A stretch of DNA of 64,000 bases, from contig NZ_KI913949.1 of NCBI RefSeq assembly GCF_000332095.2, positions 3,075,715 to 3,139,714 of the forward strand, read 5' to 3'. Positions 1 through 12,453 of this stretch are shown here, one piece after another. Numbering within the stretch: the stretch's first letter is position 1; every line of letters starts with the position of its first letter. Under the pieces are notes generated by a model. That model did not search any database, was not told the DNA's origin, and worked only from the letters and a program-made list of their open reading frames with translations. The DNA comes from Leptolyngbya sp. PCC 6406 (lineage in GTDB: Bacteria; Cyanobacteriota; Cyanobacteriia; Phormidesmidales; Phormidesmidaceae). A program made the translations under genes and the position numbers.

Positions 1-204
1 CTGCATCTGCGCCTCATCCAGTTCCCTCGGTCGCCCAGGACTGGTCTTGGGGGCAAGCTCACCCGTTTCCCGATACTGCTTCAGCAGTTTCACGATAAAA
101 CTTAGAGTCACTCGAAATCGCTGGGCTAACTGGCGCTGCGAAATGCGCTCGTTCTCATAGGTCTCAATAATCTTCTGTCGCAAATCGGTGCTGTAGGCCT
201 TCAT
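1..204 (-). CDS. IS630-family transposase, N-terminal 68 residues (partial)
   Basis: The visible part starts MKAYSTDLRQKIIETYENE and continues with a helix-turn-helix region (RISQRQLAQRFRVTLSFIVK) and the basic linker ending in PGRPRELDEAQMQ. This is the standard N-terminus of IS630-type transposases, where a winged HTH binds the terminal repeats before the DDE catalytic domain. The catalytic part lies outside the window, so integrity cannot be judged. The ATG at 204 is the natural start: the non-coding terminus of the element lies just upstream of it. Confidence 0.8.
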   Translation of the reverse strand, partial: MKAYSTDLRQKIIETYENERISQRQLAQRFRVTLSFIVKLLKQYRETGELAPKTSPGRPRELDEAQMQ

Positions 205-262
205 CGGCTCCTCGCGCTTTTTCTACCCGCTATTCGTACCACATCTTTGTGAAATCCGCTAT
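1..262 (-). mobile_element. IS630-family insertion sequence, 5' end only (runs off the left edge)
   Basis: The element begins, read on the minus strand, with TATAGCGGATTTCACAAAG near 262 and continues into a transposase gene that leaves the window. It sits directly inside a PIN-domain gene whose reading frame loses similarity exactly here, so this is the insertion point. IS630/Tc1 elements insert at TA dinucleotides, and the junction is TA-rich as expected. Only one end is visible, so element length and target duplication cannot be checked. Confidence 0.7.
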
Positions 263-370
263 AAATCCCTCAATCTCTCCAGTATTGATGCGCTCAAACA
301 GTCTGGCTGCATTTTCTACAAATGGCTCCCGCTCTTGCAGAAAGTCAAGAACCACGTTGGTGTCAATCAG
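263..370 (-). pseudogene. VapC-like PIN-domain toxin, truncated by IS630
   Basis: The minus strand reads LIDTNVVLDFLQEREPF followed by about 20 more residues typical of the first third of a PIN-domain ribonuclease, including the first acidic active-site residue (D of LIDTN). It then runs into the IS630 end and stops after a few element-encoded codons. The 5' end is also damaged: in this frame a TGA lies between the antitoxin stop and the LIDTN segment and no ATG or GTG is available, suggesting a small indel at the start. The remaining acidic residues of the PIN site are absent, so no active toxin is made from here. Confidence 0.75.
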
Positions 371-378
371 ACCTCACA

Positions 379-600
379 TTACTGATATTTCTCAGTAAGG
401 TAGGACACGTAATCCTCTCTGGCATCATGCTTCTCTGTTACTGCCGAACTTTTTGCAATCCCTCGAAGCCGCGATAAGTTTCTGTGCTTCAACTGGGGAG
501 GGGGTTCCCGTTTTAGTGACGCCAAAAGAGTTTGCACCAATTGCCAGCGATCGCTCGTTGACAGTTGTAGTACTTGTTTCTGTAGTTCTTGTAATGTCAT
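379..600 (-). CDS. type II antitoxin (partner of the truncated PIN toxin)
   Basis: A 73-residue protein beginning MTLQELQKQVLQLSTSDRWQ, the pattern of a small cyanobacterial antitoxin family usually found directly upstream of PIN-domain toxins (compare VapB/DUF2281-like proteins). It is an N-terminal dimerisation helix followed by a charged C-terminal tail that would wrap the toxin. The toxin remnant starts a few bases after its stop codon, the classic overlapping arrangement. With the toxin disrupted, this antitoxin is an orphan; it could still protect against related toxins elsewhere, which is inference. Assignment rests on pattern and context, not on a diagnostic motif. Confidence 0.65.
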   Translation of the reverse strand: MTLQELQKQVLQLSTSDRWQLVQTLLASLKREPPPQLKHRNLSRLRGIAKSSAVTEKHDAREDYVSYLTEKYQ

Positions 601-763
601 TTGTCTAGAGATATATGAGTTTGCTGTATACCAATTGTAAGTTCTTCGGATTCACAAAAGACTCAACAAAGGGTTCACTTCAATGACATCTGCAACTGAC
701 GCTATCTGAATCTTGAAACACTAACAAGAATGATCTCGGTTGCGCCTCACCGAGGACTGAGTC

Positions 764-851
764 GCATAACGTTGCCCATCACCCGCCGCAGATAGCTTTT
801 GATACTTACAGACAACCTCTCGGCGGTCGGTGTGCATGGGCGTTGTTAGGG
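764..851 (-). other. attC-like recombination site (integron cassette end)
   Basis: Read on the minus strand the site opens CCTAACAACGCCCATGC and closes GATGGGCAACGTTATGC. The two ends form a long imperfect palindrome with arms TAACgttGCCCAT and ATGGGCgttGTTA, an inner CCGCCG/CGGCGG pair, and a variable centre of about 25 bases. This is the architecture of integron attC sites (R''-L'' ... L'-R'). It lies about 40 bases after the stop of the HNH gene on the same strand, where a cassette's attC belongs. The core boxes do not match the consensus perfectly, and no integron integrase is in the window, so this would be a lone or integrase-less cassette site. Confidence 0.55.
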
Positions 852-889
852 TGCGAACTTTCCTAACACAGTCAAGAGGCTGAAATACA

Positions 890-1261
890 TTAGAACTTCT
901 TACTCTTTCTTTTATTACAAGGTGTGCAAAGCAAATGCATATTACTTTTGTCCAATGCTAGGTGAGGGTAGGACGAAACTGGCAATTTGTGATCAATCTC
1001 AAAATAGTCAATATGGAACTCATGTCCTAACATCTTACAGGTAGGACTTGCACACTTCTTCTCCTGCTTTTTGTAGAGCTTTTTTTTGAAGATTTTTCCA
1101 TCATCACTGTCGCGCCAAGAGTTAAATTGAGCACGAGCTAACTTGATAGGATCATATTTATCTTTTATCTCAATACGATCTAACTTTAAAGCCTCTAGAG
1201 AAGCATCTGTCTTTTTTATTGCTGATAGCAAATCAGCAATAATTTGATGGAGAGTACTCAT
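890..1261 (-). CDS. small HNH endonuclease
   Basis: A 123-residue protein. Residues 70 and 75 form a CxxxxC pair, EIDH (about 88-91) supplies the HNH histidine, and LLCTPCN (about 110-116) gives the second metal-binding cysteine pair and the asparagine, so the beta-beta-alpha-metal fold and catalytic residues look complete. The first 40 residues are a helical segment (KKTDASLEALKLDRIEIKD) that closely resembles the C-terminus of the protein encoded just upstream. Its ATG overlaps that gene's stop (ATGA), implying translational coupling. An attC-like site follows the gene. Such small HNH proteins occur in mobile elements and defence loci; the target here is unknown. Confidence 0.8.
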   Translation of the reverse strand: MSTLHQIIADLLSAIKKTDASLEALKLDRIEIKDKYDPIKLARAQFNSWRDSDDGKIFKKKLYKKQEKKCASPTCKMLGHEFHIDYFEIDHKLPVSSYPHLALDKSNMHLLCTPCNKRKSKKF

Positions 1262-1644
1262 TGTGTAGCGTCATATCTCTGTTTTATTTCAGCAGCATCG
1301 GCTTTTAAGGCAGCTAAAGAAGCATCTGTCTTAGCCATTGCCTGAGTAAGTTTTGCAACTACCTTACGAATTTCTGGATCACCGTCTTCTGAAAAAGGAA
1401 TTTCTACGACATTACCTAAAAGCTCTCGTAGGACAGTTAGAATTTCTTCTAAAGTCTTACGAGTAGCTTTCTGAATACGTGGTCGTTTTATATAGTCATT
1501 AATGCTGGCAATAACTTGGCTTAAATCATATATATAAGCTTGCCCTTGCCTACCAAGGGGAGATAAACCCTTCGTTATAATCTGTGCATGATACTTAGAC
1601 ATCCCATAGGCTTGCAATTGTCTACGGGTTACTATCTGAGTCAT
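1258..1644 (-). CDS. conserved hypothetical protein, helical, upstream partner of the HNH nuclease
   Basis: A 128-residue protein I recognise only as a cyanobacterial conserved hypothetical. The N-terminus (TRRQLQAYGMSKYHAQIITK) looks like a small helix-turn-helix or winged-helix segment, followed by a basic stretch and a C-terminal helix. The last 30 residues (MAKTDASLAALKADAAEIK) repeat, with changes, the first 35 residues of the HNH protein encoded next. The stop overlaps the HNH start by the sequence ATGA. It may be a DNA-binding or docking partner for the nuclease; that is inference from coupling and the shared segment. Confidence 0.6.
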   Translation of the reverse strand: MTQIVTRRQLQAYGMSKYHAQIITKGLSPLGRQGQAYIYDLSQVIASINDYIKRPRIQKATRKTLEEILTVLRELLGNVVEIPFSEDGDPEIRKVVAKLTQAMAKTDASLAALKADAAEIKQRYDATQ

Positions 1645-1654
1645 CTGTTAATAC

Positions 1655-2053
1655 TCATGCAACTTTGCTATCATCGTCGTCTTCCTTGAGAACGTGTTCA
1701 ACCATCGGATCTTTTGGAGAACCAAGTTCCCTAGCCTTGTCATAAACACGACCTACAAGACCACGCCAAAAGCCACGCTCTTCTCTAAGATCCTTTTCAT
1801 ACTTCTCAATTTTGGATGCGTGTTCTTTATCTCTGCGCTCCATTTCATCAGTTTTCTTCTTAACCAAACCCTTCTGAGCGCGCTGAAGGTTTTGGCGCTT
1901 GCTTAATTCAGGACCAGCAAATGGAGAGGTAACTCTACGGATTGTAAGCTCATCAGGATTGGTACTAAAGTCAACTGACTCTAGAGCGCGGCTAGCATCA
2001 GCTTTCGTCCATCCTTCGTGCTGGAGCAACTTAATCGCCTGTGACTTGTTCAC
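1655..2053 (-). CDS. conserved hypothetical protein with charged coiled-coil centre
   Basis: A 132-residue protein starting MNKSQAIKLLQHEGWTKADA, which resembles a small UBA- or HTH-like three-helix unit. The middle (about residues 58-95) is rich in K, E and R and likely forms a coiled coil, and the tail is acidic (KEDDDDSK). It has no catalytic motif I recognise. It lies 10 bases upstream of the next gene on the same strand, so the three minus-strand genes between 890 and 2053 probably form one operon whose promoter lies toward the hairpin-repeat array at 2196-2449. Confidence 0.55.
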   Translation of the reverse strand: MNKSQAIKLLQHEGWTKADASRALESVDFSTNPDELTIRRVTSPFAGPELSKRQNLQRAQKGLVKKKTDEMERRDKEHASKIEKYEKDLREERGFWRGLVGRVYDKARELGSPKDPMVEHVLKEDDDDSKVA

Positions 2054-2195
2054 GGGTGTTTAGAAAAACATATATCTTTGTGATCCTAGCTACTACGTAC
2101 AGTTGAGTCAACATTCAACTGCAAGATTGGCAGGCAACCTCAAGGCACTGCCCCACCAAGAACCAAGCACCCTAACTCGTTTTTAGACAGCTCAG
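2054..2195. other. intergenic stretch between the three-gene cluster and the repeat array
   Basis: No gene is visible in these 142 bases. The likely promoter of the minus-strand cluster should be here or inside the adjacent repeat array, but I cannot point to convincing -35 and -10 boxes. Confidence 0.4.
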
Positions 2196-2449
2196 GGCAC
2201 CTCCGCTCTGCCTATCCACCTTGTGTAGGGAAGATAGGCAGAGTTGGTGCCGTCTATCTCCCTGCTGAGGGGATATAGGCAGATTACAGTCTTTATAAGC
2301 ACCCAAATTGGTGGATTAGGCAGATTATAGTCTGTCTATCTCTCTGCTAGAGCGAGATAGGTAGATCATGATCTGTCTATCTCGTCTACATGGGGTGTTT
2401 AGGCAGATCACAGTCTGTCTAAACACCCTGAGCAGAGGAGTTGGGCAGA
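2196..2449. repeat. array of 41-42 bp hairpin repeats (six to seven units)
   Basis: Units start with GGCAGA (GGCACC in the first, GGTAGA in the fifth) at 2196, 2237, 2278, 2319, 2360, 2402 and a partial one at 2444, giving spacings of 41, 41, 41, 41, 42 and 42. The best-conserved core is GGCAGATyAyAGTCTGTCTA, itself an imperfect palindrome. Flanking arms vary between units but stay complementary in several: GGGAAGATAG with CTATCTCCC around the unit at 2237, CGAGATAG with CTATCTCG around 2360, and GGGTGTTTAG with CTAAACACCC around 2402. Unit size is too short for a CRISPR repeat plus spacer. Direct observation; function unknown. Confidence 0.85.
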
Positions 2450-2489
2450 CAGCTTCACAAAAGTTTTATGCGGTACTGTGCCGCATTAC

Positions 2490-3166
2490 TGAAAGAGAAA
2501 GTGATCCAGCCGATCCCCCAACCCCACCAACTCCAGCGCCATCTCCGGCAACACCGGGCGGGGGGCGATGTCCATCACCAAAGCCACATTTTCCCGCGCC
2601 GTCAAACTGGGGGTCAGGTTGTAGAACTAGAAAATGAAGCCGATGGACTCCTGCCGAAACCGAGTCAGCAGGCGATCGCCCCCCTGACTCAGATTTTGCT
2701 GACGAAAATACACTTCCCCGCTGGTGGGCACGTCTAACCCCCCCCAGAATATTCAGCAGGGTAGACTTGCCACTGCCCGACGGCCCCAGCAGCACCACAA
2801 ATTCCCCTTCATACAAATCCAGATCCACCGCCCGCAGAGCGTGAACTTCCACCTCCCCCATGCGGTAGATCTTGGTGATGTGGTGACTGTGGAAAATGGC
2901 TGGAGCCGCGATCGCAGCAGGAACTCTGGTTGACTGACAAAAGTTGCCTCTCAAAGCCCCAAAGGCTCTCGTCACAAGGGTTTCAGGAATCAAGCTCAAG
3001 CTCCTTGTCTGATGGGCATTATGGGGGCTCAATCGTGGTAAAGAGTTTCGCCCTGAAAGCACTGTGCTGTACGCCTTTCAGGGTTTAGTCAGCCAGAACG
3101 CTACACCCCTTACTTTGCGGGCAGTTCAGAAGTTTTGTCAGTCAACCAGGCAGGAACTTGGGCCAT
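2490..3166 (-). pseudogene. ABC transporter ATP-binding protein (LolD/MacB type), degraded
   Basis: Once the inserted MITE is ignored, the minus strand starts ATGGCCCAAGTTCCTGC at 3166 and reads through [18 protein letters not shown] to an intact Walker A (GPSGSGKST). After LLNILGG the frame shifts within a run of G, then continues in another frame as [10 protein letters not shown] and later hits a TAG where the family has the Q-loop glutamine of FIFQFYNL. Similarity ends near 2500, before the signature motif and Walker B. The gene thus carries an insertion, a frameshift, a nonsense codon and a 3' truncation. The family powers lipoprotein or macrolide exporters; this copy cannot work. Confidence 0.85.
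2926..3149. mobile_element. 224-bp MITE inside the ABC ATPase gene
   Basis: Both ends carry the 17-bp inverted repeat CTGGTTGACTGACAAAA. The element is flanked by perfect 9-bp direct repeats GCAGGAACT at 2917-2925 and 3150-3158. Removing the element and one repeat restores the ABC ATPase N-terminus ([16 protein letters not shown]), which proves the insertion and its boundaries. There is no transposase inside, so it is non-autonomous and must have been mobilised by an IS with these ends; a 9-bp duplication would suit some IS4-type elements. Confidence 0.9.
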
Positions 3167-3184
3167 GGCGGGATTCCCCCGTAA

Positions 3185-4095
3185 GAGGGTGTCTGAGAAG
3201 TAGAAAGGCCCTCAAAAACGCTACTCTATCAGTCAGTAAGTACACTTGATAGGGTTTTTGAGGGCAATGCGATTATCCTACCCCACCGATTTGACTGATG
3301 AACAATGGGATATTCTCTCTCTCTTGATTCCTCCGGCGAAGCCTGGTGGACGACCTCGGAGCACGGATATGCGAGAAGTGGTCAATGCGATTCTGTACGT
3401 TCTGGACAATAGCACCAAGTGGCGGTGCTTACCCCATGATTTCCCGAAGGCCAAAACGGTCTACCATTATTTTCGCCAATGGCGCAATGATGGGGTGTGG
3501 GAACACATCAATCACCGATTGCGGGAGTTGGTGCGGTTAACGGAGGGGCGCGAAGCGTCTCCCAGTGCAGCGGTGATGGATAGTCAGTCGGTGAACAGCG
3601 ATGTCTACATTTCGGAGTCGGTCGGCTTCGATGCAAACAAAAAGGTCAAAGGTCGGAAGCGAAACGTGGTGGTCGACACAATGGGTTTAGTGCTGATGGT
3701 TGTGGTTACCGCAGCGAGTCTCCCTGAGCGGGATGGCGCACGAAAGGTGCTAGAAAAAATGCATCAGGTTAGTCAGTGGTTCACTCGCCTGTGTGTCATT
3801 TGGGTTGATGGGGGATATAGCGGTAACGATTTCATGAAAGAGATCATGGACCGCTTTCGATGGGTGATTGAGGTGATCAAGCGCCCCGACTGTGCGCAGG
3901 GATTTGTGCTGTTACCCAAGCGGTGGGTGGTGGAGCGCACATTTGGCTGGTTTACTTTTTGCCGCCGCTTGAGTAAAGACTATGAGCGCCTACCAGAGAC
4001 CGCTGAGGCATGGATTTATGTGGCCAATATTCGAGTCATGTTAAGGCGACTAACGTGCTAATTCATACCTACATTCCAGCTTTTCAGACACCCTC
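3185..4095 (+). mobile_element. complete IS5-family insertion sequence (911 bp)
   Basis: The ends are GAGGGTGTCTGAgAAG at the left and, inverted, GAGGGTGTCTGAaAAG at the right. A 3-bp target duplication TAA flanks the element (3182-3184 and 4096-4098), matching the TNA target of the IS1031-like subgroup. One transposase gene fills the interior. A strong hairpin (CCCTCAAAAACGCTA paired with TTTTTGAGGGC) lies between the left end and the transposase start and may dampen read-through translation. It landed just upstream of the dead ABC ATPase gene. Confidence 0.9.
3267..4061 (+). CDS. IS5-family transposase (DDE)
   Basis: About 264 residues from the ATG at 3267 (MRLSYPTDLTDEQWDIL); a TTG at 3246 in the same frame falls inside the upstream hairpin and is less likely. 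The N-terminal DUF4096-type region (TDEQW ... GGRPRSTDMREVVNAILY) is followed by the catalytic triad: D in VMDSQSV, D in WVDGGYSG and E in VVERTFGWF with the expected arginine and lysine around it. Length is normal for a single-frame IS5 transposase and no frame break is seen, so the element may still be active. Confidence 0.92.
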   Translation: MRLSYPTDLTDEQWDILSLLIPPAKPGGRPRSTDMREVVNAILYVLDNSTKWRCLPHDFPKAKTVYHYFRQWRNDGVWEHINHRLRELVRLTEGREASPSAAVMDSQSVNSDVYISESVGFDANKKVKGRKRNVVVDTMGLVLMVVVTAASLPERDGARKVLEKMHQVSQWFTRLCVIWVDGGYSGNDFMKEIMDRFRWVIEVIKRPDCAQGFVLLPKRWVVERTFGWFTFCRRLSKDYERLPETAEAWIYVANIRVMLRRLTC

Positions 4096-4143
4096 TAACA
4101 TCAAGACTACCCGGAACTCAAATACCAATATCGCTCGAAATCA

Positions 4144-4623
4144 CTACATCAGTGTTTGAATTGCAGCCAGAATGTCCTGATCAGGGGCTGGAGTATTATT
4201 GTCAATTTCCAAGTCCCAGTCATAGGTTACAGCAGCAGCAATTTGGTTGTATTGCTCCACCTTATCGTCTGAAATGGGGATATGCTCGGCATTATTCCGG
4301 TGTTTAACCCGATATAAACAGGTATCTAGGGCGGCATAGATTCGAATAAGCTTAAGGGCATATTTTTCCGCCAGTGCCGCTCGAAACTGGCCAAAGGCTT
4401 CCCCAGCCCCTAGGCTTTCAATCATCACTTTGGGGTAACTTTCAAAGGCTTGATCGATGGCCTGCTCCACCTTTTTCCAGCCATTTTCACCGGGTTTGAG
4501 GGCGAGCCAAATGGATTCCACCCGAATGAATTGGATCTCCGTGTTTTGGGCAACCAGGGTGCCGACATAGGTCTTGCCAGCTCCTTTTGGCCCGATCAGC
4601 ATATAGAGTGTGCGCTGGGTCAT
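4144..4623 (-). CDS. P-loop ATPase/kinase-like protein
   Basis: A 159-residue protein starting MTQRTLYMLIGPKGAGKT; the Walker A (GPKGAGKT) is at residues 10-17. A longer reading to 4677 exists, but upstream residues look random. The size and layout match the AAA_33/shikimate-kinase-like group of small nucleotide-dependent kinases, with a later IRIYAALDTCLYR strand and an acceptor/lid segment (RVKHRNNAEHIPISDDK). The substrate cannot be told. It follows the IS5 element and lies 127 bp from the next minus-strand gene, with no operon evidence. Confidence 0.7.
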   Translation of the reverse strand: MTQRTLYMLIGPKGAGKTYVGTLVAQNTEIQFIRVESIWLALKPGENGWKKVEQAIDQAFESYPKVMIESLGAGEAFGQFRAALAEKYALKLIRIYAALDTCLYRVKHRNNAEHIPISDDKVEQYNQIAAAVTYDWDLEIDNNTPAPDQDILAAIQTLM

Positions 4624-4750
4624 GGTCAGATTTAGCAGAAGTATCAAGAATTGGTGGTGTAAGCGGCACAACACCATGGGTTGTTAGGAAGCAGCCCTAG
4701 CTGTTGCAAAAATAGGGCGATCGCCCATGTTCTGCCCTGGATACTGGAGG

Positions 4751-6388
4751 CTAGATTGAGCAGGTCAGGGCTTGGGTTTGCTTGCTGAAAAGGATATTTT
4801 CCCGATAGTCCACGGGGCAGTCGATCACCGTCGGCACATCCTGCTCCAGGGCTTCCTTCAGGGTTGGAACCAAGTCCTCCGTGGACTCGATGCGATAGCC
4901 CTTTAGCCCCATACTCTCCGCCAGCTTGACGAAATCGGGATTGGTGAAGTGGACAAAGGCAGACTCACCGTAGGCGTTCTGCTGCTTCCACTCAATCAGA
5001 CCGTAGGCTCCATCATTGAAGATCAGGGTGACAAAGGGGGTACCCACCCGCAGGGCCGTTTCTAGCTCCTGGCAGTTCATCATGAAGCCGCCGTCTCCGG
5101 TCACCGCCACCACCCGACGGTTGGGGTGGACTAATTTAGCCGCGATCGCACCTGGAATCGCAATGCCCATAGCGGCAAACCCATTGGAAATCAGACAGGT
5201 ATTGGGGCGATCGCAGTGGTAATTGCGAGCGATCCACATTTTGTGGGCTCCCACATCGGAAATGACGATATCCTCCGGCCCCATCACCTGGCGCAGGTCA
5301 TAGATCAGCTTTTGGGGCTTCACCGGAAAGCCGTAATCATCGCTATAGCGCTCATAGTCAGCGCGGATCTCCTCTCGCAGCGTCAGGTTGATGGGGTCGG
5401 GCATCCCCTTGCGATTTACCCGCTTCAAGATTTCCGTCAGGGAGTCGGCAATATCCCCCACCACCTCTACACGGGGAATGTAGCTGCTATCAATTTCCGC
5501 CGGGGTGGTGTTGATGTGGATAATGGGCAGCTCCCCCTCAGGGTTCCACTTTTTTGGGGAATATTCCACTAGGTCATAGCCAATGGCAATCAGCAGGTCG
5601 GCCCGCTCTAGGCCGCAGGTGATGTAGTCCCGCTGCTGGAGGCCAAAGGTCCACAGGGCCAGGGGATGGGTGTAGGGCAGCACCCCCTTACCCATGAAGG
5701 TATTGGCCACGGGCACATTCAAGGTCGTGGCGAACTGGATCAGGGCGTCGCTTGCCTGGGCGCGAATGGCCCCATTGCCCACCAGAATCAAGGGATTCGT
5801 CGCCTGGGAAATGGCTACCGCCGCCTGCTGGATACTCTGGAGGGAAGAATAGGATTTGCCCTGGCCATTGCGGTGTAGGGGCTTACCCTCCACTGGCATA
5901 GCGGCGATATTTTCCGGCAGGTCAATGTGGACCGCACCGGGATTTTCGGTTTGGGCCAGTTTGAAGGCTTTGCGGACAATCTCTGGGGTAATGCTGGGGC
6001 GCACAATCTGGGCGTTCCACTTGGTCACCGGGGCGAACATGGCCACCAGATCTAGGTATTGGTGGGATTCAATGTGCATCCGGTCCGTGCCCACCTGCCC
6101 GGTGATCGCCACTAGGGGAGCCCGATCTAGGTTGGCATCCGCCACCCCGGTCATCAGGTTAGTGGCCCCCGGCCCCAGGGTGGAAAGGCACACCCCCGCC
6201 TTTCCCGTGAGGCGACCGTAGACATCCGCCATGAAGGCGGCTCCCTGCTCGTGGCGGGTGGTGATGAATTGAATGGAGGATTTTTTTAACGCTTGGAGCA
6301 CTTGGAGATTTTCTTCCCCCGGTACTCCGAAAATATATTCTACCCCTTCATTTTCTAGGCACTGGACGAGTAATGTGGCGGTATCCAT
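4751..6388 (-). CDS. 2-oxoglutarate decarboxylase (acetolactate-synthase-like, ThDP-dependent)
   Basis: A 545-residue ThDP enzyme. The N-terminal Pyr domain has the catalytic glutamate in TTRHEQGAAFMADVYGR (about residue 47), and the C-terminal PP domain has GDGGFMMN followed by IFNDGAYG for Mg-ThDP binding. By sequence alone it would be called a catabolic AlsS-type acetolactate synthase. Established work in Synechococcus PCC 7002 showed that the cyanobacterial protein of this type next to succinate-semialdehyde dehydrogenase is 2-oxoglutarate decarboxylase, making succinate semialdehyde for the TCA bypass. Here the dehydrogenase gene lies 1.8 kb upstream on the same strand with DarTG between. 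An AlsS role remains possible. Confidence 0.75.
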   Translation of the reverse strand: MDTATLLVQCLENEGVEYIFGVPGEENLQVLQALKKSSIQFITTRHEQGAAFMADVYGRLTGKAGVCLSTLGPGATNLMTGVADANLDRAPLVAITGQVGTDRMHIESHQYLDLVAMFAPVTKWNAQIVRPSITPEIVRKAFKLAQTENPGAVHIDLPENIAAMPVEGKPLHRNGQGKSYSSLQSIQQAAVAISQATNPLILVGNGAIRAQASDALIQFATTLNVPVANTFMGKGVLPYTHPLALWTFGLQQRDYITCGLERADLLIAIGYDLVEYSPKKWNPEGELPIIHINTTPAEIDSSYIPRVEVVGDIADSLTEILKRVNRKGMPDPINLTLREEIRADYERYSDDYGFPVKPQKLIYDLRQVMGPEDIVISDVGAHKMWIARNYHCDRPNTCLISNGFAAMGIAIPGAIAAKLVHPNRRVVAVTGDGGFMMNCQELETALRVGTPFVTLIFNDGAYGLIEWKQQNAYGESAFVHFTNPDFVKLAESMGLKGYRIESTEDLVPTLKEALEQDVPTVIDCPVDYRENILFSKQTQALTCSI

Positions 6389-6460: not shown

Positions 6461-7540
6461 TCAGGAGGCGGAGCCTCCCATGGGGATGGCTGAGTCAGAA
6501 AATCCGCCTACCCAACCCTGCCTCGACAATACATCCAGGGCCAGAGCAATCTGGCGCTGGGTAAACTGGCGCTTACGGGGATTCCAGTTATAGACATGGC
6601 TTACGATTTCCTCTACGGACGTGATGGGCTCGTGGGTCGCAACCCAGTGCACCGTAGACAGCAGTTCTAGGCCAAAGGATGACTCGAAGCCCTCCACGAG
6701 GGCAGAAACTTTATCAAAGCGATCGCGGGTTTCTGGGTGATGTTGTAAAAAGCTTGTTGCTTGTTCAGTAGCTCCAGGCACCAACTGGAGCTGTTTGTGG
6801 GGAGTATCACCACCATCGGCATAGCCAGAAATCAGATGGCCCTCCACAGCATTTAGGACATGGCGGAGATTTTCAGCATAGGGACCATAGGGGGCTTGCT
6901 GGTACCTCAGTCTCAAGGGTTCGCCTGCTACCTGCATGAAGTACATCAACTTATGAACTTCTAGCAGCGTCACAAATGGATCCAGCAAACCCGACAGATA
7001 GTTCCTGATCAACTCCACCATCACAGCCCTTCCCGGAGTCATGGCCGGAACCTCACGGGAAGGGAGCATAGTCTCGGCTGAGGGGGCTCCAGCAGGCTCA
7101 TAGACAACAGCACTTACCTCCGTCAAGGGTTCTAGGGCAGCGATAATCCGTTCCTTCACAACTGACCATTCCAATCCACCCAGACCACATCCCAATGGAG
7201 GAATCGCAATAGACTGAATTTGATGCTGCTGGATAGTCAAGATCAATGACTCCAAGCCCATCTCAATATCTTCAAGTCGACTCTTGCCTCGCCAATGGCG
7301 CTTGGTGGGAAAATTGATGATGTAGCGGGGGTTCGTCAGTTGCCCTGTCTCGAAAACAAATAGCTTTCCTGGCTGCACTATTTTCTGCTTGCAAGCAGCG
7401 GCGTAGGCTTTGAAATTCTCTGGATAGGCACGCTTGAATTGAAGCGCGATGCCTCGCCCCATGACTCCAACACAATTAACGGTGTTGACTAGAGCTTCAA
7501 CGTCCTCTCTGAGAATATCGCCACACTTATACTTAATCAT
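6461..7540 (-). CDS. darG: DarG, macrodomain antitoxin of a DarTG system
   Basis: A 359-residue protein from MIKYKCGDILREDVEALVNT (ATG at 7540, 16 bp after the darT stop). The N-terminal macrodomain shows NTVNCVGVMGRGIALQF (ADP-ribose binding), NFPTKRHWRGKS with the lysine needed in DarG for removing ADP-ribose from DNA, and PPLGCGLGGL. The C-terminal half (MVELIRNYLSGLLDPFV onward) matches the DarG region that binds and blocks DarT. Role: hydrolyses thymidine-ADP-ribose on single-stranded DNA and sequesters the toxin. The last residues (PMGGSAS) are encoded by a GC-rich palindromic repeat, suggesting a repeat-derived end. Confidence 0.93.
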   Translation of the reverse strand: MIKYKCGDILREDVEALVNTVNCVGVMGRGIALQFKRAYPENFKAYAAACKQKIVQPGKLFVFETGQLTNPRYIINFPTKRHWRGKSRLEDIEMGLESLILTIQQHQIQSIAIPPLGCGLGGLEWSVVKERIIAALEPLTEVSAVVYEPAGAPSAETMLPSREVPAMTPGRAVMVELIRNYLSGLLDPFVTLLEVHKLMYFMQVAGEPLRLRYQQAPYGPYAENLRHVLNAVEGHLISGYADGGDTPHKQLQLVPGATEQATSFLQHHPETRDRFDKVSALVEGFESSFGLELLSTVHWVATHEPITSVEEIVSHVYNWNPRKRQFTQRQIALALDVLSRQGWVGGFSDSAIPMGGSAS

Positions 7541-7556
7541 TGCAGCCGCCTTGTAC

Positions 7557-8216
7557 TCAGTAATACCAGTCTGGTTTGATCTCCACCTGTGGTCGATGTC
7601 CACCCCCAGGAAAGGCATTGACCACTTGCTGGTAGATGTTCTGGGAATAGATGCCAATGCGCTCAATTAAATGCCATGGAAAGCAATATTCCATGAGAAA
7701 TTCTGCCTGCTTGCCTTCCTTGATCGATGGATCAATACCGTTGCCACCCCATCGATTGGCTTGTATGGCCTGCCAGTTCAGATCATTCAACTGGGCTAAG
7801 TCATTGCGATCTTCAAAGTAATAGGCTCCGGCATTGGAGAGCGTAAAAACCCATTTTTGTTGATGAGTGTTTGCCCAGGCCACTGAAGCATGTAAGTCTG
7901 CCTCCAAGTGAATAATGGGCGCTTGCCCACCACGGTAGGTCAAGTCTGAATGATTGGCTTGATGGATGAGGTACAGCATGACCGATCGGGGACAGAAATA
8001 GAAGGGTACACAGTCGCCGACTCGTAAATCGGGATGGCTAGGCAGGGTTAATTCCTCAAGTCGCCGTTGTTTGATGCGGTTCATGCCAATGGTGGTTCCT
8101 GACGGAGCGCGGCACAGAATTTCACGATCGCACCATAGACACCCCTCTGAGACAATCGACGAAAGCCGATCTACATGAACAATATGGTAGATTTTCGGCT
8201 GCTCAGGAATAGGCAT
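7557..8216 (-). CDS. darT: DarT, single-stranded DNA thymidine ADP-ribosyltransferase toxin
   Basis: A 219-residue DUF4433 protein. Key parts are YHIVHVDRLSSIVSEG near the N-terminus (NAD-binding histidine), GDCVPFYFCPRSVMLYLIH, and KQAEFLMEY near residue 165 carrying the catalytic glutamate. DarT attaches ADP-ribose from NAD to thymidine in DNA, halting replication; DarTG modules are known anti-phage systems. All expected regions are present, so the toxin looks functional. It starts 9 bp after the stop of the succinate-semialdehyde dehydrogenase gene on the same strand, so it is probably read from the metabolic promoter as well as any of its own. Confidence 0.93.
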   Translation of the reverse strand: MPIPEQPKIYHIVHVDRLSSIVSEGCLWCDREILCRAPSGTTIGMNRIKQRRLEELTLPSHPDLRVGDCVPFYFCPRSVMLYLIHQANHSDLTYRGGQAPIIHLEADLHASVAWANTHQQKWVFTLSNAGAYYFEDRNDLAQLNDLNWQAIQANRWGGNGIDPSIKEGKQAEFLMEYCFPWHLIERIGIYSQNIYQQVVNAFPGGGHRPQVEIKPDWYY

Positions 8217-11541: not shown

Positions 11542-12453
11542 CTAGTCGTGGACCGTGCCGTCGGGCATGGTGGCCTGGGTGAGGTTGGCCTCCGTTAAAA
11601 CCGCCTCCTCCAGGTTGGCTTCAGTGAGGTTGGCCCCCGCCAGATTAGCCTGGGTCAGATTGGTCCCCGCTAGGTTCAACCCCGTGAGATCCAGACCCGC
11701 CAGGTTGGCATAGCTGAGATCTGCACCACTGAGATTCGCCTCCGCGAGCAGCGCCTCGGTGAAGTTGGCATAGCTGAGGTCGGCCCCCAGCAGATTGGTT
11801 TCCTTGAGATTGGCGGCAGTGAGATCTGTGCGAGTTAAGTTGGCGCGGTTGAGGCGAGCGCCGCTGAGGTTGGTTTCCTGAAGAATGGCATCGCTAAAGT
11901 CGGCGTGCAACATGCGGGCATCGGCCAGATTGGCACGGGTAAGATTGGCTTTCCCCAGTTGCGCCCGCTGGAGTTCCACCCGCCGCAGGTTGGCCTCGGT
12001 GAAGTTAGCTTCCCTTAGGTTGGCCCGGTTCAACTCGACGCCGATGAGGCTAGCTTTAGTGAGATTAGCCTGGTGCAGGTTGACCCCACTCAGGTCTGAA
12101 CGATTCAGGTTCGCCTCCACCAAAATCGCCTGACTCAGATCCGTCTCCCCCAGGTCGGCCCCCAGGAGGTTGGCTTTGGTGAGGTTGGCTCCACTGAGGT
12201 TGGCTTTATTGATATCGGCTCCGCTCAGGTCAGTTCGCACCAGGGTCGCCCCACTGAGATCCGCCTCGCTAAGGATGACGCCGATACAATTGGCGCGGGT
12301 GAGGTCTGCACCGCTGAGGTTAGCGCCCTTCAGGTCAAAATTGCCCAGGTTGGCGTGGGCTAAATCAATGGCGATGTCGGGGTGGTCGGTTCGCCACTGA
12401 TTCCAGGTGGCACTACCCGCCCGCAGTTGTGTGAGATGGTCTTCGTTTGCCAT
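11542..12453 (-). CDS. pentapeptide-repeat protein
   Basis: A 303-residue protein. After a short N-terminal segment (about 30 residues) nearly the whole chain is A(N/D)Lxx pentapeptides, roughly 50 in a row, such as GANLSGADLTRANC, with no signal peptide or membrane segment. These fold as a right-handed quadrilateral beta helix. Cytosolic and lumenal members are common in cyanobacteria and functions are mostly unknown; some mimic DNA and inhibit gyrase, but nothing here points to that. It ends 151 bp after the tsaB start on the same strand. Confidence 0.9.
   Translation of the reverse strand: MANEDHLTQLRAGSATWNQWRTDHPDIAIDLAHANLGNFDLKGANLSGADLTRANCIGVILSEADLSGATLVRTDLSGADINKANLSGANLTKANLLGADLGETDLSQAILVEANLNRSDLSGVNLHQANLTKASLIGVELNRANLREANFTEANLRRVELQRAQLGKANLTRANLADARMLHADFSDAILQETNLSGARLNRANLTRTDLTAANLKETNLLGADLSYANFTEALLAEANLSGADLSYANLAGLDLTGLNLAGTNLTQANLAGANLTEANLEEAVLTEANLTQATMPDGTVHD

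Follow-up and report, generated by a model that had tools for sequence, protein, structure and literature searches.

Three small, adjacent genes on the minus strand of the Leptolyngbya sp. PCC 6406 genome form one conserved operon, encoding two small helical proteins and an HNH nuclease. Three-gene cyanobacterial HNH operons of this kind look undescribed: no description was found in the literature, as judged by titles and the opening of abstracts, and according to the sequence searches made here the first two proteins appear to fall into no named family. The window, i.e., the whole stretch of 64,000 nt that was analyzed (G000:C1:3075715-3139714), is part of a 5.78-Mb genome and carries the following features in and around the operon:

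756 to 852, minus strand: attC-like (integron-type) site, some 40 nt past the HNH gene
890 to 1261, minus strand: gene 3, HNH nuclease of 123 aa, with an N-terminal helix similar to the C-terminal helix of gene 2
1258 to 1644, minus strand: gene 2 (P2), 128 aa, with a predicted MerR/excisionase-type winged helix-turn-helix at the N-terminus (about residues 4 to 52) followed by two helices
1655 to 2053, minus strand: gene 1 (P3), 132 aa with a GTG start, a small helical N-terminal domain and a 75-residue helix
2083 to 2111, minus strand: putative promoter 5′ of gene 1
2207 to 2449, no strand assigned: tandem hairpin array, a dispersed repeat of the genome

The ORF coordinates bear out the first-pass annotation in that the three genes are tightly packed on the minus strand and the last two are coupled: genes 2 and 3 share 4 nt (1258–1261, ATGA), and the gap from gene 1 to gene 2 is 10 nt. 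The stretch at 2083–2111, which matches the promoter consensus at 9 of 12 positions with a 17-nt spacer, is a possible promoter-like site between the hairpin array and gene 1; a scan of the region found three such sites, with 3.5 expected by chance.

Searches of 386 cyanobacterial genomes with gene 2 and gene 1 gave matches in 10 and 8 genomes, respectively, and the flanks of these matches showed the same trio again, also on a Gloeothece verrucosa PCC 7822 plasmid. With a gene 1 profile, 46 loci, all titled as cyanobacteria, were found in the genomes of 84,980 species, and one further locus (L109, IMG/VR) was found among viral contigs. The three genes had been proposed to form one unit, and we looked for homologues occurring singly: 43 of the 47 loci retain the full set in the fixed order gene 1, middle gene, HNH, and this synteny rules out an accidental grouping. 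The exceptions are L068 and L098, which have gene 1 only, L080, which has no HNH gene, and L108, which lies at a contig end. Some of the 47 rows are dependent, as L094 and L095 are two copies from one genome, and L100 and L083 appear to be the same as loci L042 and L051, respectively.

The middle gene comes in two kinds, type A, to which that of the window belongs, in 17 loci and type B, which represents another family, in 26. Independent searches with middle and HNH proteins recovered the fixed order as well. Those that started from HNH or the middle protein of type B added sets whose gene 1 has a different N-terminus, as well as sets in which the middle and HNH proteins are even more divergent. 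Among the distant sets, the HNH match of L177 is only weak and L178, L179, and L189 gave none, and gene 1 of the most distant sets was assigned by position and look only. At L043, the gene order is HNH, gene 1, gene 2. Overall, the distribution of the operon is patchy and mobile, and at most 31 of the 386 genomes have a match to gene 2, to the profile of gene 1, or to that of the type B middle protein, a union in which the weaker matches are unverified. Scanning genome contigs with only the gene 2 protein as query gave no matches, nor did scanning viral contigs with the HNH profile of type B. The gene 1 profile (A7) was built from the window and 33 of the 46 relatives of gene 1 in L063 to L109, and the gene 2 profile (A6) from the window and 16 of the 17 relatives of gene 2 in these loci; the relatives excluded are mostly near copies.

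The identification of the third gene as an HNH nuclease was confirmed by a match of its product to Pfam HNH (PF01844; E 2.3e-8, 34.5 bits, cut-off 21.4). The residues C70, C75, D90, H91, N107, C115, N116, and K119 are invariant across the 17 type A HNH proteins, and the passed cut-off together with the conserved H, N, and zinc cysteines places the predicted protein in the HNH endonuclease superfamily. Its nearest relatives are phage and defence HNH proteins, with the similarity extending over the generic motif only. The best PADLOC match (E 1.2e-9) is to PtuB (TIGR02646) of Septu and retron-associated systems, likewise a small HNH nuclease with a similar motif, encoded in a defence-type operon. 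However, this match spans only about 60 residues and reaches 23.2 bits for TIGR02646, below the cut-off of 52.15. Moreover, in contrast to Septu, the operon has no gene for a PtuA-type ATPase, and the partners of the nuclease are two small helical proteins (128 and 132 aa) without a PADLOC match.

Neither gene 1 nor gene 2 matches a Pfam, NCBIfam, or PADLOC family above threshold, and their PHROGs rows are at most at chance level. The AlphaFold model of gene 2 (mean pLDDT 83.6) shows a winged helix-turn-helix followed by helices, and Foldseek against a viral library weakly matched it to phage proteins of the excisionase and MerR-like kinds (E 0.028 and 0.034, prob 1.00). The protein would resemble MerR-like and excisionase proteins in its N-terminal winged helix-turn-helix, but the fold scores are weak, there is no family match, and gene 2 has additional C-terminal helices that resemble the N-terminus of the nuclease. 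In the window, this resemblance corresponds to a 76-nt repeat with 71% identity between the stretches encoding the two helices, and the proteins of genes 2 and 3 cross-match with an E of about 6e-7. The likeness was equaled by at most 3 of 300 shuffles in 10 of the 17 type A operons, and the remaining 7 fall short of this level. A type B middle protein (L066, 8547–8987) has a weak match to AbiEi (E 1.2e-5, 23.3 bits), which might hint at a DNA-binding role.

For gene 1, the AlphaFold model (132 residues, alignment A7, mean pLDDT 91.3) predicts helices at residues 3–12, 17–23, 35–109, and 116–130. The best fold match of the N-terminal domain in VIA is RuvA domain III (Z 5.6 over 49 residues); the rows for RuvA range from Z 4.4 to 5.6 and those for UBA domains from about 3 to 4, all below the safe level of the tool, according to whose own caution a Z under 8 may reflect a common arrangement. 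Foldseek searches with the gene 1 and gene 2 models gave no match with an E under 0.001. The fold matches of both proteins are weak, yet consistent in kind. No solved structure was believably related by sequence to either protein, and matches to a solved envelope protein were rejected as chance-level rows of an unrelated protein.

Comparison of gene 1 between the two types revealed a mosaic pattern in the window. Its N-terminus (residues 1–68) has a mean identity of 70% to 16 type B proteins and 43% to 17 type A proteins, whereas its C-terminus (85–132) has a mean identity of 13% to type B and 30% to type A. In a quick tree, the N-terminus groups with type B (SH-aLRT 98), and in a tree of the HNH proteins the nuclease of the window falls within type A, beside L079 (SH-aLRT 98). 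Gene 1 of the window is therefore a likely, not a proven, natural chimera that arose by domain swap, since neither forcing its N-terminal domain into type A (p-AU 0.78) nor forcing the HNH protein into type B (p-AU 0.38) was rejected.

From locus to locus, the genes next to the operon mostly bear no relation to one another, although a few small sets are shared, and the chromosomal copies, which are the majority, lie between unrelated and largely housekeeping-looking genes. The main exception comprises ten loci of the Nostoc type, with gene 1 directly divergent from recA (L068 has gene 1 only); in nine of them, xseA follows behind the HNH gene. Both recA and xseA were named by reading the sequences. 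At L046 (5209–9745) and L081 (3048–7609), two large tandem GTPase-like genes, which we read as dynamin-like, lie directly upstream of the type B operon, and at L046 an antitoxin gene of the same kind as one in the window and a PIN-like gene stand downstream of it (11555–12267). A location of the operon in defence islands, as the first-pass annotation had considered, found no support: among 129 neighbor proteins from 38 of 46 loci scanned with PADLOC, there was no clear excess of defence genes, and no PADLOC family had more than four members, a count made without a control set.

Three copies are in phage-like loci. At L100, the operon lies 65 nt behind an S24/CI-type repressor gene, with a tail protein encoded nearby in the overlapping locus L042. 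At L109, it lies behind a gene for a 117-aa regulator (phrog_8, E 3.6e-4), together with an integrase and an endolysin, and at L102 it is next to a Mu-type transposase and behind a 131-aa gene without a Pfam or PHROGs match, which we read as a regulator. On the Gloeothece verrucosa plasmid (L029), the operon is found behind a Cro/C1-type HTH gene. Thus, in all four mobile loci examined, the operon lies behind and codirectional with a small regulator-like gene, three of which have a family match. In addition, the genes upstream of L083 are read by us as parA and parB (the putative parB has no Pfam match), and a type B set is located on an Acaryochloris plasmid, where the upstream genes face in the opposite direction. 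In its position and direction beside a regulator, the operon of the phage-like loci is similar to lambda rexAB, an exclusion operon of temperate phages located beside the repressor gene. This comparison is one of position, with no sequence relation claimed, and in contrast to rexAB the present operon encodes a nuclease and proteins of a DNA-binding type.

We infer a protective function because the operon encodes a nuclease, is patchily distributed with links to phages, and is located beside regulators, and we tentatively favor a modular nuclease complex that attacks incoming DNA and is spread by temperate phages and plasmids. According to this model, the three gene products would assemble into one complex, in which gene 2 may contact DNA via its MerR/excisionase-like winged helix and the HNH protein would cut the DNA. 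Gene 1 would act as an elongated coiled-coil subunit whose small, exchangeable N-terminal domain probably senses or selects the target; the exchange of this domain is what a recognition part would show. The similar helices of gene 2 and the HNH protein could mediate docking, either mutually or onto gene 1. The operon would travel with temperate phages and plasmids beside and codirectional with a regulator or repressor gene, the place of genes expressed during lysogeny, and guard the cell or the prophage by attacking incoming DNA. Counting against a role in defence, no known defence family scored over its cut-off, the neighbors show no clear excess of defence genes, most copies lie on chromosomes among largely housekeeping-looking genes, and the ten loci beside recA also suit repair.

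A more far-reaching version of this model is possible but rather doubtful. It regards the operons as a large, undescribed family of modular three-subunit nucleases from cyanobacteria and their mobile elements that combine a swappable N-terminal recognition domain, carried by a long coiled-coil protein, with varied middle adaptors and an HNH cutter, exchange parts between subtypes, and operate without an ATPase or methyltransferase. If this modular reading is true, the proposed exchange of recognition parts between subtypes would be reminiscent of type I restriction enzymes.

Homing, repair, and phage-internal roles are less likely alternatives to a protective nuclease complex. The operon could be a selfish, free-standing HNH cassette that cuts a specific empty site and is copied into it by repair, in a homing-like manner and with no need for a benefit to the host. 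Such behavior would be in line with the patchy distribution, the insertion between unrelated genes, rapid divergence, and the combination of a nuclease with a protein of a DNA-binding type. Moreover, one recA-xseA junction without the operon was found in a genome that carries the operon elsewhere (L202); it is the only such junction among 10 xseA-positive genomes (14 searched), with recA lying outside the 1.5 kb fetched in the other nine. However, the insertion sites vary by lineage, whereas a homing enzyme retains one target, and no intron or intein was seen. Homing-type enzymes also need fewer than three conserved subunits, so that the operon exceeds their needs, and we regard this explanation as unlikely.

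The ten loci with gene 1 divergent from recA, nine of them with xseA behind, could instead reflect a cyanobacterial nuclease of DNA repair or recombination that acts with RecA and exonuclease VII. The first rank of RuvA domain III among the fold matches of the gene 1 N-terminal domain and the weak match of the HNH protein to NinG (PF05766; 20.3 bits, below the gathering score of 25.4) would agree with such a function. Yet L202 has recA next to xseA with no operon there, so the linkage to recA may go back to one old insertion, which weakens a function through recA and xseA. Other loci have different neighbors, a patchy and partly phage-borne operon is unlike a core repair gene, and the RuvA-like fold is within the range of Z that may be a common arrangement. 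A repair nuclease therefore seems quite unlikely.

Gene 2 faintly matches the small terminase family phrog_57 (E 0.018), and HNH proteins aid DNA packaging in some phages. Together with the place behind a regulator in phage-like loci, this could point to a phage module that controls lysogeny or packages DNA, composed of an HNH protein and a small-terminase-like DNA binder and left on chromosomes by prophages. However, gene 1 and gene 2 have no relative in 50,697 phage records, viral contigs yielded only a single locus, and most copies are far from recognizable phage genes, yet keep all three genes. We consider a phage module of this kind improbable.

The surroundings of the window operon are worn. 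Positions 1–263 are a repeat with seven more identical copies elsewhere in the genome, which we read as a transposase end, and at 240–600 an antitoxin-like gene (379–600) is followed by an apparent PIN-type toxin gene truncated by this repeat. On the other side, an ORF at 2466–3062 is in our reading a broken ABC-type gene, and an IS4/IS5-type transposase gene is found at 3246–4061. About 4.4 kb from the operon, a DarT/DarG pair is encoded on the minus strand (6461–8216; PADLOC E 1.6e-67 for DarT and 6e-139 for DarG). DarT/DarG is a known DNA-modifying toxin-antitoxin defence system.

The attC-like site that had been noted downstream of the operon is real and beyond chance. Folding of 740–860 gave a z of -3.49 on the minus strand (0 of 200 shuffles as good) and -2.06 on the plus strand (7 of 200). 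A covariance model (R1) built from seven copies in the genome scores the site at 104.8 bits, with the site itself included among the seven. These strong copies align well, and each is located just behind a gene in the same direction: besides the HNH operon, these are a C-5 cytosine methylase gene, a type I specificity-like gene, a small HTH gene next to a second C-5 methylase gene, and MtlR-like, DUF7000, and DUF6119 genes. R1 has 15 matches in the genome of the window. Counting this genome, 60 of the 63 family genomes contain matches, some of which lie in same-strand rows, e.g., four on G215:C24 between 42426 and 46107. In 20 of 29 family loci, the site is immediately preceded by the end of a reading frame of at least 60 codons, compared to 11 of 29 in a mirrored control, and integron integrases score over the cut-off in 30 of the 63 genomes. 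Based on the aligned copies behind genes, the matches across the family, and these integrases, the site at 756–852 is a real integron-type site. Integrons and attC sites of cyanobacteria are already known from passages of PMC8352920, PMC8618304, and PMC9668308, and a cyanobacterial attC model is described in a passage of the first of these.

Copies of the site occur behind or beside restriction-modification genes at L009 (3387–4803), L010 (4028–5553), and L015 (3970–5586), two of which have C-5 cytosine methylases and one a type I specificity-like gene. At another copy (L017, 693497–693594), a fragment of an integron integrase (G000:C1:691562-691705, L060) lies about 1.8 kb away and is divergent from the DUF6119 gene that precedes the site; this region looks like a decayed chromosomal integron.

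Conservation analysis showed that the attC-like site is a local addition and not part of the conserved operon. Across 61 sources (the window and 60 loci), R1 found a site directly behind the operon in the window only; other matches near operons, at L099 (4504–4596) and L043 (7189–7282), are about 2 kb or more away. Similar to cyanobacterial integron cassettes, the window copy has an attC-like fold with end motifs at its 3′ side, in fixed orientation, and belongs to a family with integron integrases. In contrast to such cassettes, it comprises three genes with a single site and no intact integrase, and other copies of the operon have no site. Accordingly, an integron array at this position, which had also been considered, is reduced to the one 3′ site: the window has no further R1 match except the same site on the opposite strand, and TIGR02249 gave no integrase match over the cut-off in the genome, only fragments. 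The window copy, a chromosomal operon followed by an integron-type site, may have been captured as an integron cassette in the past, or have become one.

Similarly, the hairpin array reported upstream of the operon is real and folds strongly, and it is a dispersed repeat outside the conserved unit. It consists of five 26-nt copies at 2235–2425 with spacings of 41, 41, 41, and 42, and the minus strand of 2170–2460 folds with -55.5 kcal/mol (DNA parameters; z -6.28, 0 of 200 shuffles as good). The repeat is present at five places in the genome, four of them without sign of the operon, and in four other genomes of the 63, clearly in one and weakly in three. No such array precedes any of 45 other operons, which rules it out as a conserved guide or control element; by a simple count of inverted repeats, 22 of these 45 upstream regions have none and no region has more than three, compared to four in the window. 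No Rfam family reached its gathering score in positions 1–5000 of the window (two chance-level rows). The attC-like site and the start of the flank of the array sit at the edges of the region delimited by the first-pass annotation, so that its description of the genes as bracketed by the two is correct as to position, but neither bracket belongs to the conserved unit. That operon, hairpins, and attC-like site make up one self-contained mobile cassette is highly improbable, despite the 3′ site in cassette orientation as in the six other strong copies of the genome and the integrases of the family, given that the site is directly behind this copy only and absent from its other side, the genome has no intact integrase, the hairpin repeat also stands elsewhere without the operon, and the operon family includes loci that have neither the site nor the hairpins, which already refutes it at the level of the family.

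To our knowledge, phage defence in filamentous and other cyanobacteria is little charted compared to enterobacteria. A conserved three-gene nuclease operon that is found in temperate phages and on plasmids and chromosomes would, as a compact system, lend itself to direct testing. Should the target be set by the N-terminal domain of gene 1, the likely chimera in the window would provide a ready pair of parts.
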